Assembly (NCBI RefSeq): GCF_036711975.1
Contig: NC_091970.1
Location: forward strand, 4,657,501 to 4,721,500
Direction: 5' to 3'
Length of the DNA stretch: 64,000 nt
Source: Onthophagus taurus
Taxonomy: Eukaryota > Arthropoda > Insecta > Coleoptera > Scarabaeidae
Under the pieces are notes generated by a model. The model ran no database searches. It was given only the letters and a program-made list of their open reading frames with translations, and was not told the DNA's origin. Positions 10,926 through 44,369 of the stretch are shown here, piece by piece. Numbering within the stretch: the stretch's first letter is position 1; each line of letters begins with the position of its first letter. Position numbers and translations under genes: made by a program.

Positions 10926-13900
10926 TTATTTTACCTGATATTGTTGCTCGCTTTCAATCATACCAACAGCGGCGACGATTTGATATTGACGAGCTTTCAT
11001 GTAAGCCTCGCCCTTCCTTAATAATCTTAGGGCTTGCGAACCTGTGTTCGTATCGGCAAATTGCGCCATCTGCTGAGGTGAGTGACTCGGATCTAAAAGC
11101 AATAACACCAAACTTCCGTCTTTGTGCACTTCGATACCCATTATTGTACGACTATGTCCTTAAATAAATCCGATTAATTAAAAAAATGGGAAAAATTTTG
11201 TTTCTTACCTTGATGTTGAAGGTACAAAGGCGGAGTAAAGTCTTGCTGGAGGCAATTCTCGAAATAATTAAGTACCCAGGCGAATAATTCGGGGTGGGTA
11301 CCTCCAGGACCCGTCGGACGATGAAAATCTATTAACTGGCAACGAATTCTTAAGTACGATAATAAAGTCATCACTTCAGTAGCTCCAATCCATTTCCTAG
11401 TGTTTACTAATCGACTCCCAAGTTGCTCAGAACCCTAAAAAGATGCGAACTGACGGTCAAAAATTGTAATTTCGCACCAGCGCCATCTTTTGATGGCACT
11501 ATACTCTGTTTTTAAACCAGGAGGAGTAACCGCGAAAGTCAGATTTACACTAGGAAAAATCACCAGAAAATATCACTAGATATTTTGGCAGTAAATTTAA
11601 ATTAATAATTATTATTATTTATTTATTTACTTATTATTGTATTTATTTTCGTTTGTTATCGTCAACACTAAACATACAAATTAATATTGAAGTTATGAGT
11701 GTATTTATTTCAAAATATAATAAAGAAGGGTTTAAGAACACAAAATTTACAATAATGACACGTGATGACACGAAACTGTCGAACTGTCAATAACCTAACC
11801 TTCAAATTCAAAATTGCCTGTGTGTGAACCTTCCTCGCATTAAACCAATCACGTGCAAGGTCAATCTGGTGACAAATTTAAAATACTCCTCCTGGTTTAA
11901 AAACAGAGTATAATTGCTAAAGAAAAATTCAAGGTATAATTAATGTTTGTAAACAAAACTAACCTTACCTAACATTCCTTCACGCTATAATTGACATTAC
12001 AAAAGAAAACTTCACGCTATAATTGCCATTACTAATTGCCAAAGAAAACTTCATGGTATAATTAATGTTTGTAAACAAAACTAACCTTACCGAACATTCC
12101 TTCACGCTATAATTGACATTACAAAAGAAAACTTCACGCTATAATTGCCATTACTAATTGCCAAAGAATACTTCATGGTATAATTAATGTTTGTAAACAA
12201 AACTAACCTTACCTAACATTCAGCGTCTGAAGACACAGGGCTAAACCCGAAACTTAAAAATATACAACTAAGCGCTGAATAACAATTAAAACTAAAACTA
12301 ACACTTGCACTAGAACTATACTCTGTTTTTAAACCAGGAGGAGTAAACGCGAAAGTCAGATTTACACTGGAAAAAATCACCAGAAAATATCACTAGATAT
12401 TTTGGCGGTAAATTTAAATTAATAATTATTATTTATTTATTTACTTATTATTGTATTTATTTTCGTTTGTTATCGTCAACACTATACATACAAATTAACA
12501 TTGAAGTTATGAGTGTATTTATTTCAAAATATAATAAAAAAGGGTTTAAGAACACAAAATATACAATAATGACACGAAACTGTCGAATTATCAATTACCT
12601 AACCTTCAAATTCAAAATCAAAATTCAAAATTGCCTGTGTGTGAACCTTCCTCGCATTCAACCAATCACGTGCAAGGTCAATCTGGTGACAAATTTAAAA
12701 TACTCCTCCTGGTTTAAAAACAGAGTATAGTAAACGATAATATTTAATTAAATATAAACATTCTATTTTGATAACAATAATTACGGTAATAAATGGTAAT
12801 ATTTCTACAATTTAATTAATTTTTTTCCTTGTATATGGCGTTTAGTATGAAACAGTTTTTCGACAATTTATTTTTATAAGTAGCGCCATCTTTTGGTGAG
12901 CGTAAGAAAATTTAAAACATAACCTAATTTTTAACAAATTAAAAATTAACCAACCTGTAAATCAAATCCTTGAGCCCAAGCCTCTTCAATTAACCCTTGC
13001 AAACGTGATATACTCGGCACAGAACTCCTTGGGGGCTTCTGATTCTGCCAAATCGTGTATAACCTCTCATTATACCCCGTGTGTTTTAATAAACTAGATA
13101 TGAGCATTTGAGTGTTGCGATAACCGCACCCCCAACCTCGATCACCATAAGACGAGGCATAATGATCAACACATGTGCAAATATAAGTTCGAGAAACATT
13201 TTGCGAACTTATACTTAACGCTCTAATTCGAGGAATCTAATTAAAACAAATCAAATTAATACATTAAAAAAGTGATGTTACAATTCCTTTTGACATACTA
13301 ATCCCCTCGTTACTGAACTTCCATCATCGATTCCACAACTTTCCGCTTGTCTTAAATCGAGGGTTCTTTCGTAATAATCAGCAACGCTCATTTCGCCGGC
13401 ATAAACAGCCCTTTGCATGTTAGTAACAGATTGTTCGCGAAAATTCCCTTGGTTATCCATGCCGTATTGGGCTCGTAACAACTCAAATTCACGCTCTTCA
13501 CGTTTTTTTAACGCCTCACGGTCAATTGGTTGTGGGGAACCCGCTGGGAAATGTGATTCTACATGCCGAGCTGCCGCATCACTCTAAAAAAATAAAATTA
13601 ACTAATAAAATTGATGATTAAATGAGATTAATTTACGTTATTATCATTATCTAGAGTTAATCCGCAAATAGGACAAGTCGAATTTGTTGGGGAAGCTGGT
13701 GATAACACATCTTTATGCTCAATGTTAACATGCAGCTCTAAATCGGGAGCTGAATTGAATGATTTCGAACAAAGAGGGCAAGCGAAAACCTCCCCGGTTG
13801 TATTTCCGATTGATGGTGATGTTAAATCGAAATGTTGTCTAAAAATAAGGTTTGTTAATATTTTTTTAATGTTGTAATTAAACCATACCGATTTACATGT

Positions 13901-18309: not shown

Positions 18310-19834
18310 ATGTCCGAAGGAGACACCAATACACCCACCGGTGAGATCGACAATGATGATCCTTTGTATAAACCACCTCCCGAGAAAAGCATCGATGAAA
18401 TTCTGGCTGCCGACCAAGAAGATGAGAGCTTAAGGAAATATAAAGAGGCTTTGTTGGGGCAAGCTCAATCAGGAACGATTGTAGTTGGTAAAAATGAATT
18501 AAACAATTTTAATTTTGAGGTTATTACTGTTTTTGGTTTTTAGAACCCAACGATTTAAGAAAAGTCTTGGTGAAGCGATTGGTCTTGGTTGTCGCGGATC
18601 GCCCCGAACTCGCTTTAGATTTGACCGGCGACATCTCAAAATTAAAAAAAGAAACGTTTTCCATTAAAGAGGGCGTCTCTTATAAGATTCGTATCGAGTT
18701 TATCGTGCAAAGAGAAATCGTGCACGGCTTAAAATACGTGCAAAAAACTTATAGGCTCGGAGTTCCAGGTAAGAAAATTAACCTAAATTATTTCGTAACT
18801 TGTAAAATAAATTTATTTTCATAAGAGCTTACTGAACCAGGTAAGAAATAATTTTTTATTACGACATAAGCTCAACAAATTTTGACACTTAATTGACATA
18901 ACCCCAAAATATTTTGACATTTATTACTTTATTTCGTTACTTTTAAATAAATCGATTAAAAAGTCGATACCACCACAAGCTTTGTATGAAAACCACGTAA
19001 AAAAAGTTAAAATAAAAGTTGTTGCTCCCTCGTTGATGTGATGCTCGTCTTGGGCGAAACCGTAATATGCAAAAATGTAGGTTATCATGGCGATTAGGCC
19101 CCACCAATTTCCGCTTTTCACCGAAAAAAATCCTAATAGACACATGTTTAATCCCATCATTGGGATACCTTCGACGTCGGGGGTGAAATTCCTCACCACA
19201 ACGTAGCAGCAAATTAATGGTATCGTTGCAACTATTGGATAAATGTAGGCGAACTTGTTGTGGCCGTTTAAAAGGGCAACTTTTCCAATTATACAAGCGA
19301 TTCCCAAGGTGTCCCTTAAATACATTGATGTTCCATAAATTGAGTTAAAATTATCGTTATTATTACTATATTTTAATACTCCGGTTATCGAGTGAATACC
19401 CAATAAGCCAAATGCGGTTAATGTTAAAAGATCTTTCCCATTTAAACGATAATATTGGGTTGATAAAAATATGCTTGTCCCCGCTAATATTCCATGAGTT
19501 ATTAATCGATAACTTCTATCCATTATTCATTTTTAATTTAAAATTATAAAATTAATATAAAAATAATTTGACATTTCAAACGTCAAATGTAACTAATTTT
19601 TTTTTTAATTATGTTAGTTTTTCTTTTTATTTAGTGGATAAAATGACTCATATGGTTGGTTCTTACGCCCCAAAAGGTGAAATTCAATCGTACACAACAC
19701 CGTCGGAGGATGCACCTTCCGGAATGATGGCCAGAGGTGCATATACGGTTCAATCTCTTTTCACCGATGACGATAAACACGAGCATTTGAAATGGGAGTG
19801 GACGTTTGAAATTAAAAAGGATTGGAAAGATTGA
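18310..19834 (+). CDS. RhoGDI: Rho GDP-dissociation inhibitor
   Basis: Cytosolic chaperone that extracts prenylated Rho GTPases from membranes and holds them GDP-bound. Exons 18310-18487, 18544-18768 and 19635-19834 join to 200 residues (human ARHGDIA 204). The acidic N-terminal arm contains NDDPLYKPPPEKSIDEILAAD, the switch-binding helix. The immunoglobulin-like prenyl pocket follows, with FSIKEGVSYKIRIEF, and the C-terminal FTDDDKHEHLKWEWTFEIKK. Intron 2 (18769-19634) contains an antisense gene and a potential 15-nt microexon. The start is the ATG just before SEGDTN; an upstream in-frame ATG at 18277 lies in probable 5' UTR or intron. Confidence 0.95.
18826..18840 (+). other. Possible in-frame 15-nt microexon of RhoGDI
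   Basis: Within RhoGDI intron 2 the segment AGCTTACTGAACCAG is preceded by a pyrimidine-rich stretch ending in AAG and followed by GTAAGAAATA, nearly identical to the donor of exon 2 (GTAAGAAAAT). Its phase fits both neighbours: inclusion would insert ELTEP between GVP and VDKM. Canonical RhoGDIs lack the insert, so if used it is an alternative exon. A duplicated donor without function is the alternative. Confidence 0.4.
18924..19523 (-). CDS. Multi-pass membrane protein nested in RhoGDI intron
   Basis: Intronless 199-residue frame lying entirely inside RhoGDI intron 2 on the opposite strand. About six or seven hydrophobic segments can be read (for example GILAGTSIFLSTQYY, LTLTAFGLLGIHSITGVL, YIYPIVATIPLICCYVVV, GLIAMITYIFAYYGFA). 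It has charged short loops, no signal peptide cleavage site and a lysine near the C-terminus (FKSNEIK). Composition and codon use look like a real gene. I do not recognise the family. Being intronless and nested, it may have arrived by retroposition. Confidence 0.75.
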   Translation of the reverse strand: MDRSYRLITHGILAGTSIFLSTQYYRLNGKDLLTLTAFGLLGIHSITGVLKYSNNNDNFNSIYGTSMYLRDTLGIACIIGKVALLNGHNKFAYIYPIVATIPLICCYVVVRNFTPDVEGIPMMGLNMCLLGFFSVKSGNWWGLIAMITYIFAYYGFAQDEHHINEGATTFILTFFTWFSYKACGGIDFLIDLFKSNEIK

Positions 19835-20314: not shown

Positions 20315-20734
20315 TTATTTAATATTCTCTCGTCTTTTCCACTCCTCTTTCATGGTTTTTAATTTTTCCCTTTTTTTTAAAGCAGCTTCTGACTTTTTCT
20401 TCTCAATTTTATCAATTTGTGCTTGAACACTCTCCTCTTTATTAATTAAATTATCCAATTTTTGAATTAGAATAGCCCTTGCTTTCTTCCGATTTATCAT
20501 CAACGACCTATCTTCATGACATTTTACCACAATCCCTGTTGGGAGGTGTTTTAATACGACACAATTCGATGTTTTATTAGTCGCTTGCCCCCCGGGGCCA
20601 CTTCCACGCACATGTTGTTCTTCCAAATCCTTTTCGAATAACTTCGGCACTTTGGTGTAATCAACACAATGTTTTAGCCGCTTAAAATTTGCAATTATAA
20701 GAGGAGGAGGTTTAATAATGTAGCGAAGAATCAT
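20315..20734 (-). CDS. MTRFR: Mitochondrial GGQ release/rescue factor MTRFR
   Basis: Homologue of MTRFR (C12orf65), a class I release-factor-like protein that rescues stalled mitochondrial ribosomes. It has 139 residues. The N-terminus is basic and hydroxylated ([20 protein letters not shown]), consistent with a mitochondrial presequence. The catalytic loop [20 protein letters not shown] contains the GGQ tripeptide, followed by [10 protein letters not shown] and a lysine-rich helical tail that docks on the ribosome in this family. The ATG overlaps the stop of the upstream LYR frame as ATGA, so it is likely translated as the second cistron of a shared mRNA. Confidence 0.9.
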
Positions 20735-20934
20735 TTCACCGATTGTCGCTCGAGAAGTGATAAACCCTTCTTATAATTAAAAGAAATTTCTTTTGGATCG
20801 GTTAAATTTTTGTTGGTTTTAAATTCGTGGCGAATTTTGCGAAAATAATATCCTTTGTTTGTATATTCTAGATCTGAACCGTACCTTAAAAGTTGTTTAT
20901 AAAGATTTAAGATTTTTGTTGTTGAAATACTCAT
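20731..20934 (-). CDS. LYR-motif microprotein, MIEF1-MP-like
   Basis: A 67-residue frame directly upstream of MTRFR and overlapping it by four bases. The N-terminal [11 protein letters not shown] is an LYR-type motif; [15 protein letters not shown] and the final KKGLSLL align with human MIEF1-MP (LSLYRALLRQG, YTDRDFYFASIRREF, EKGLVFL). MIEF1-MP acts with the mitochondrial acyl carrier protein in large mitoribosomal subunit assembly. This pairs naturally with the ribosome-rescue factor encoded next. The stop is AAATGA, whose ATGA starts MTRFR. The distance to the zinc-finger gene stop upstream is only 137 bp. Confidence 0.8.
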
Positions 20935-21071
20935 ACTTTAAAACTTTATCAAATAACTGATTTTTATTGTGAGGTTATGTTATTTTTTAGGTTAGGGGGG
21001 AAAATGGGAACTAAAAAAACGTCGTATTGGTTGCATAACCAAGTTTGAAATTAAAAAAATTTATTTTAGTT

Positions 21072-31872: not shown

Positions 31873-33043
31873 TCATAGTAATTCATAGAAATAATCCAAA
31901 CCATCCCCAACTCTCCAAATAAAGATCCCAACGTTTAATTCATTCGCCAATTCAACCCTTTTATTTAAACTATACAAAGTGGGGTAAAAAATCCTCTTTT
32001 TCTTCATCGAGCTAAAATTAATTTTTTTAATTAAAAATAAAGGAATTAATTAAAATCCACCTTGTAATATCAAAATAGCTCTCGGCTGCGTATTGATCAT
32101 AAACCAAATAATTATTATAATCCTTCAAATAATCAATAAAATCATTTTTGTTGATTTCCTTGAATTGCGTTGGTTTATCCTTCTTTAAGGTGGTTTCATA
32201 ACCGTTAAATTCGACCCCAAAGAAGAGTTTGGTCCTAAATATCCCCTCGGGGTCAAGTTTCTTGATGAATCTCGCAATTCTAAACGTTGCTTTTCGATTA
32301 AAAGTTGCTAAGGTGATGATACTCGCGTAATTTGCGATTTGCTCAAATAAATCTTTATTTAAATGGTGAATATTCGTGTATTTCCTTGGAATTGAGATGA
32401 TTGAGACGAATAAATTCATTCTTAATCGCGCCGAAATTTCTTGAATGACTCCAATTAATAAATTATTAGGTACTCTTTTATACCAATCATTAAAAACATC
32501 CACAACTAATCCATGAAAGTGGTAATGTTCACATAAATGCAATAACTCCTCCGATAAACTAATCCATTCTTGTTCTGATGATGCCAAAATCAAAAAATCT
32601 CTCATATCCCAACTTTTGAAGGAAATTCTTGGGATAATTCTTATTTGGGGGTTAACTTGAATCAACTTTTTAATCCATTCCTTATTAATTTTCTCAATTC
32701 CCGAAATTTTGTACTCCCCGTAACCTGTTCGTTGAATATTCAACCACATCGGACTCAAATAATTAAATTTTTTCGCGAAATCTATCCCTTTTAACGCCTC
32801 ATCCTAAAATGAAACTTAATTAATTACAGATTAATCAATAAAAAGAAATCCAACATCTTCTATAAACCCCAAAACTCCAACTTGAGTCCGATTCCCCCCT
32901 CCGAGATAAAATTTATCATGATTTAACAAAATTTCTTCCGCACTCGGAGTATTAATCAACAAATTCCTTTCAAAAACACTTTCAACGTCGCAAAAAATCC
33001 TTCGAAACGCACCCAAAAACACTAAAATTCCCAAAACGTTCAT
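31873..33043 (-). CDS. Divergent CHID1-like (GH18) paralogue
   Basis: Paralogue of the chitinase-domain-containing protein CHID1/SI-CLP, a secreted or lysosomal GH18-fold lectin-like protein. Three exons (32855-33043, 32061-32803, 31873-32011) give 356 residues. It has a signal peptide ([18 protein letters not shown]), the [11 protein letters not shown] block, and a C-terminal [18 protein letters not shown] plus [11 protein letters not shown]. Compared with the conserved copy at 43090-44369, the strand-4 block DGYVIEIW reads HGLVVDVF, and the MTYDFSNVHRPGPNAP block is replaced by [13 protein letters not shown]. Ligand binding must therefore differ. The frame is intact, so it is not an obvious pseudogene. 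Intron 1 position is shared with the other copy. Confidence 0.85.
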
Positions 33044-43089: not shown

Positions 43090-44369
43090 TTAAAACAAAT
43101 CAAAAAAATAATCGAGTCCTTGTCCCAACTCCCAAATAGAAACCCCAGTTCCCAATTTATTCACCAATTTAACCCGCTCATTAATCGTAAATAAAGTTGG
43201 GTAAAATATGATGTGTTTCCCATCCTCCTCTTTAACCTCAAAGTAATGTTCTTGACTTTTCTCATCAATTTGCAATTTTCCTTTAAATTTTTTTAATAAT
43301 TTCAAATAATCGTGGTTAATAACTGCGCCACCACCACTCGGGGTAAAATCATAACCATACAAATTAAATCCAGTAAATATTTTTTCTCTCTTCTCAATAT
43401 CGGGAGCTATTAATTTAACGCAATCCTCAATCCAACGAATTGGGGCGTTCGGACCTGGTCTATGCACATTAGAAAAATCGTACGTCATCAACGAAAATCC
43501 ATCAACGTAATCGTAAAGATCGTTAAAGTTGTTTTGATCGAATAACGGCGTTTTTGAGCGCATCGGAGGGATCACTAAAATAATTTCTAATTTTTCTTTA
43601 CGTACTCGCATCGAAACTTCCTGCACCAAATTTATAATGAGATCACTACGGAGTCTACCGATTACTTGGGACCAAATCTCGATTACGTAACCATCAAATT
43701 TGTGTTTTTGTGCGGTTCTAATTAAGGTATTTGAGAAGCCGTCCCATTCATCTTGCATCATCGATAATTTTACGTAATCTTCAGCCAACCAATTTTCAAG
43801 GATTATTCGAGGAACAACTAAAAATCTTTATGATTAATACTTATTAAGTTAAGATTATAAAGGTTACTTTTTAAGTTATTAGCTTTTCCAGCTCTTTTAA
43901 CATCGGCCATCCAGTCTTTATCAACATCATGTTGACCCAAAATTTCATAAACTCCTTTATCCACACGTTTTGCTTGCAACCAAACTGGGCTGATGTGAGT
44001 AAATTTATTTGCGAATATAAATGCGGCGTTATAACCATTATTATTCCACTAAAAATTTTTTTTTTAAGATTGTGTGTATTTTTAATTATTATAACTTACA
44101 GGAGTAATATAAGCCAAAGATTTTCCTTGTGTACGCTTAATATGGGTCTTTTTGCAATAAGCTTTATGATTATTAATGATTTCTTTAGCTGTTGGTGGAT
44201 TAACAACTAAGTTTTTCTCAAAAACATCAATTTCATCAGGACCTGATCTCACTACTTCAGATTTATCCGGTTTTGAACCTTTTTCCCCGCTTTTTCGCGA
44301 CTTTGGGGTTAACGTACACTCGGTTAGTAATAAAATATGGACAAAAAAAGAGAGAAATTTAATTAACAT
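43090..44369 (-). CDS. CHID1: CHID1 (chitinase domain-containing protein 1)
   Basis: Secreted/lysosomal GH18-fold protein (SI-CLP homologue). Three exons (44100-44369, 43868-44048, 43090-43817) give 392 residues; human CHID1 has 393. A signal peptide (MLIKFLSFFVHILLLTEC) precedes a basic segment. Family blocks are ISPVWLQAKR, FDGYVIEIWSQ, LVQEVSMRVRKE, LMTYDFSNVHRPGPNAPIRW, GFNLYGYDF, the SQEHYFEVKEEDGKHIIFYP segment and SIWELGQGLDYFFDL. The glutamates of classic chitinase catalysis are not in the canonical DxxDxDxE form, as in the family, so sugar binding rather than chitin hydrolysis is likely. A divergent paralogue lies about 10 kb to the left on the same strand. Confidence 0.93.

Follow-up and report, generated by a model that had tools for sequence, protein, structure and literature searches.

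Hayden & Bosco 2008 (PMC2276209) list 44 conserved-peptide upstream open reading frames (uORFs), one of them in the Drosophila melanogaster gene CG30100, whose annotation is that of a translation release factor. According to the same paper, the CG30100 uORF encodes 70 aa with a Ka/Ks of 0.08, and the uORF and the main open reading frame (mORF) are found together on one EST in species as distant as Ixodes scapularis. CG42372 directly adjoins CG30100 (PMC13401236) and is listed among the fly LYR-domain proteins (PMC9585818). From its position and size, and from the homologous arrangement described below, we infer that CG42372 is the 70-aa uORF of CG30100. Given the release-factor annotation, we take CG30100 to be the fly orthologue of MTRFR.

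Several other systems share parts of this design. In the human MIEF1-MP/MIEF1 dual-coding mRNA, an LYR microprotein is likewise encoded upstream of another mitochondrial gene, except that the downstream gene encodes the fission factor MIEF1 instead of MTRFR. Drosophila sloth1 and sloth2 are two small mitochondrial proteins made from one mRNA, with an inter-ORF gap of 5 nt, and reporters support leaky scanning (PMC9681215); they differ from the pair studied here in being Complex III factors and in having a non-optimal first start context. In the dicistrons of Drosophila stoned and Snapin, which are not mitochondrial pairs (Wall et al. 2005), the first cistron is poor in internal AUGs, and leaky scanning was shown experimentally for both, as described in PMC11291117. 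Green-algal dicistrons combine an AUG-depleted first frame with leaky scanning, and some have overlapping stop and start codons (PMC11291117). Overlapping stop and start codons are also found in influenza B BM2 and in caliciviruses, together with a UGGGA core (TURBS) that is missing here. A FlyBase count in 2015 gave 159 dicistronic pairs.

Overlapping frames for an LYR protein and MTRFR

We analysed a 64,000-nt stretch of Onthophagus taurus DNA (the window), in which an LYR frame is followed by an MTRFR frame on the same strand (Table 1). The anatomy of the genes matches that of CG42372/CG30100 and its arthropod orthologues, in which a release-factor mORF and a conserved uORF of about 70 aa lie on one mRNA and, in the fly, the adjacent gene encodes an LYR protein. 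The locus differs from CG30100 in species, and the main text of the 2008 report names the uORF neither as LYR nor as MIEF1-MP and does not describe an ATGA overlap. The novelty that the first-pass annotation implied for the arrangement is not upheld, since it was reported from fruit flies and ticks in 2008 (PMC2276209); the LYR/MTRFR arrangement is a further example of a known, arthropod-wide one. In a literature search, no publication turned up that identifies the CG30100 uORF as a MIEF1-MP relative.

Table 1. Features of the LYR/MTRFR locus (window coordinates)
Feature	Position	Strand	Basis or remark
Cistron 1, LYR-family protein, 67 aa	20731..20934	-	ORF and homology
Cistron 2, MTRFR/C12orf65 orthologue, 139 aa	20315..20734	-	ORF and homology
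ATGA stop/start overlap	20731..20734	-	sequence
Predicted RNA hairpin around ATGA, arms in both frames	20693..20780	-	z about -2.3
TCAGTT initiator-like element	20955..20960	-	motif; predicted TSS A at 20958
AATAAA polyadenylation signal, overlaps MTRFR stop codon	20314..20319	-	consensus match only
ZAD-C2H2 zinc-finger gene, main exon, upstream neighbour	21072..22205	-	first exon from 22493

The LYR stop and the MTRFR start overlap as ATGA, as had been claimed, with the TGA (20733-20731) sharing letters with the ATG (20734-20732). The overlapped AUG is the sole in-frame AUG of the MTRFR frame ahead of the GGQ, the next being at 20500, and an in-frame stop lies 13 codons 5′ of it; thus, barring an unseen upstream exon, translation of a functional MTRFR has to begin at the ATGA. 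An ORF of at least 60 aa linked by ATGA to a following ORF of at least 100 aa arose in 0 of 100 copies generated from the window with a first-order Markov model, versus two such pairs in the real window. The second pair (52335-52594 and 52592-53050, plus strand) was rejected as a dicistron, being an artefact in which a TSC2-like (DUF3384) exon is read into its intron, and the ATGA pattern alone therefore proves nothing. The LYR/MTRFR pair is real, as both of its frames have homologues, the LYR domain is complete and there is no credible splice acceptor.

The first frame matches Pfam Complex1_LYR (PF05347, 2.4e-13) over residues 7-62 and contains an LYK motif of the LYR/K type at residues 11-13 (20904-20896, minus strand). 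Among LYR proteins with a solved structure, to which the ranking was confined, its best match is human MIEF1-MP (AltMIEF1, 1.1e-9), followed by LYRM4 (about 1e-5) and NDUFB9 (0.009), and the mitoribosome-assembly LYR proteins of trypanosomes match likewise. The likeness to MIEF1-MP that the first-pass annotation had noticed is well supported among these structures, and the LYR protein is likely to be an assembly factor of the mitoribosomal large subunit, on which MIEF1-MP binds mtACP and MALSU1. A single-sequence structural model is a poor one (pLDDT 64) with three helices; fold comparison with this model recovered LYR chains at Z scores of 3 to 5, MIEF1-MP being absent among the matches listed, and Foldseek returned no significant match. 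No match was obtained in NCBIfam, and no relatives were found in the scanned viral contigs or prokaryote genomes.

The second frame matches Pfam RF-1 (7.7e-22) and human C12orf65/MTRFR at 1.1e-29, versus 2e-11 for the next family, and shares an 18-residue stretch with the human protein, in agreement with its earlier designation as the mitoribosome rescue factor MTRFR. It comprises a short RF-1 domain with a GGQ (20593-20585, minus strand) and without codon-recognition domains, and its N-terminal 24 residues are basic and contain no D or E, a composition that may suit mitochondrial targeting. NCBIfam gave generic release-factor matches only, and the scanned viral contigs contained no relatives.

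A predicted common transcript and the synthesis of MTRFR

TCAGTT is an arthropod initiator consensus. At this locus it stands 26 nt ahead of the LYR AUG, and transcription from its A would give a predicted leader of 24 nt that is free of AUG. The frequency of the element in the window is about 0.2 per kb on each strand, so that about 0.03 copies are expected in the 137 nt between the stop of the zinc-finger gene and the LYR start. Since TCAGTT lies so close to the LYR start, a short-leader dicistronic mRNA is likely, and that the LYR protein and MTRFR share one mRNA is very likely. The zinc-finger neighbour, in a hand-spliced two-exon reading, matches zf-AD (6.8e-7), presumably as befits an arthropod host, and has an AATAAA at 21065, directly after its stop. 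A bacterial-type promoter scan of the locus was uninformative. Downstream of MTRFR, on the same strand, lies an intronless frame for a 199-aa multi-pass membrane protein (18924-19523, minus strand) with no confident Pfam match.

We consider it probable that the locus is an arthropod-conserved dicistronic gene from which MTRFR is made mainly by leaky scanning. Transcription from the TCAGTT near 20958 would yield a single mRNA that has a leader of about 24 nt and ends just past 20315. Some of the scanning 40S subunits would initiate at the first AUG (20934) and produce the LYR protein, while others would bypass it, meet no AUG across the LYR frame and initiate at 20734 to produce MTRFR, which releases peptides from stalled mitoribosomes; coupled termination-reinitiation at the ATGA may contribute some MTRFR. 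The outcome would be the co-expression of two mitochondrial translation proteins. Leaky scanning is preferred because the first frame is AUG-free and the predicted leader is short. Specifically, the stretch from the LYR start to the MTRFR start contains no further AUG in any of the three frames, whereas only 4.4% of the sequence's 200-nt coding windows are AUG-free. Synonymous recoding of the LYR protein gives an AUG-free frame in 13% of draws (P 0.13), or about 0.045 when the absence of Met is counted. The AUG depletion is thus only modestly non-random (p about 0.04) and lends modest support to leaky scanning. The LYR AUG, with A at -3, T at -1 and A at +4, is not clearly weak, which would limit leakage.

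The first-pass annotation had instead proposed that MTRFR is translated from the shared mRNA mainly by termination-reinitiation at the ATGA, which we regard as rather unlikely. The overlap resembles those of calicivirus VP1/VP2, influenza B BM2 and silkworm SART1, and the ATGA lies within the predicted hairpin, which has a perfect arm pair of 10 bp (AATTATAAGA/TCTTATAATT) plus a GGGTTTA/TAAACCT pairing; SART1 relies on structure downstream of its overlap. However, a z of -2 is reached by 2.6% of coding windows and the scan covered 28 overlapping windows, which leaves the hairpin without significance; it is suggestive, as a predicted structure that could favour coupling, and apart from the overlap it is all that still speaks for coupling. 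Against termination-reinitiation as the main route, the UGGGA motif-1 core, the best-known signal of this mechanism, is absent throughout the LYR frame, a first frame of 67 codons is long for ordinary reinitiation, the mechanism needs no AUG-free first frame, and stop and start also overlap in some of the algal dicistrons, for which leaky scanning is supported (PMC11291117). Of the original proposal, the dicistronic reading and the two identities are well supported, with a published precedent in the fly CG30100 uORF and the LYR neighbour CG42372, whereas termination-reinitiation has no firm positive feature beyond the overlap.

Two further explanations were considered. MTRFR could have its own promoter within the LYR frame, the overlap being a result of gene crowding. 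It had been claimed that there is no room for a promoter, and indeed none fits between the frames, but one inside the LYR frame would have space, where a TATAAA is found at 20901; in the fly, numerous dicistronic loci give rise to monocistronic mRNAs as well. This TATAAA, however, is followed by no initiator motif, TATAWA arises by chance about 0.5 times per kb in coding sense, and arthropod ESTs carry the uORF and mORF on one RNA, which makes an internal promoter improbable. Still less credible, and very improbable in our estimate, is that the upstream frame is spurious or a spliced piece of a single gene. An artefact of that type does occur in the window at 52335-53050, but the LYR frame has a start and a stop of its own and contains the LYR domain in full, no good splice acceptor with a pyrimidine tract was found near either frame, the best donors score 4/6, and the fly counterpart is a separate conserved 70-aa frame.

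Implications and other features of the window

The locus connects an entry in the 2008 table of fly and tick uORFs with two proteins of mitochondrial translation whose human counterparts are known. In humans, loss of MTRFR leads to disease. Mutation or RNAi of fly CG30100 may also affect the LYR protein. In other respects, the locus is a further arthropod dicistronic gene for mitochondrial proteins. A bolder and quite unlikely interpretation is that LYR microproteins of the MIEF1-MP type have since ancient times shared the mRNAs of mitochondrial genes, that of MTRFR in arthropods and that of MIEF1 in vertebrates, and that in arthropods the ATGA and the hairpin would enforce coupled synthesis of an assembly factor and a rescue factor of the ribosome at a fixed ratio.

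Elsewhere in the window, similar-looking GH18 chitinase-domain (CHID1-like) frames lie 11 kb apart on the minus strand at 32027-32749 and 43090-43761, of which only the latter matches Pfam; they are possible duplicate copies. At 11490-11920 (minus strand), a ACTCTGTTTTTAAACCAGGAGGAGTA-like stretch has an inverted copy, ACTCCTCCTGGTTTAAAAACAGAGTAT, about 400 nt away. The pair adjoins a UFSP-like (Peptidase_C78) gene and looks like the termini of a small transposable element with inverted repeats.
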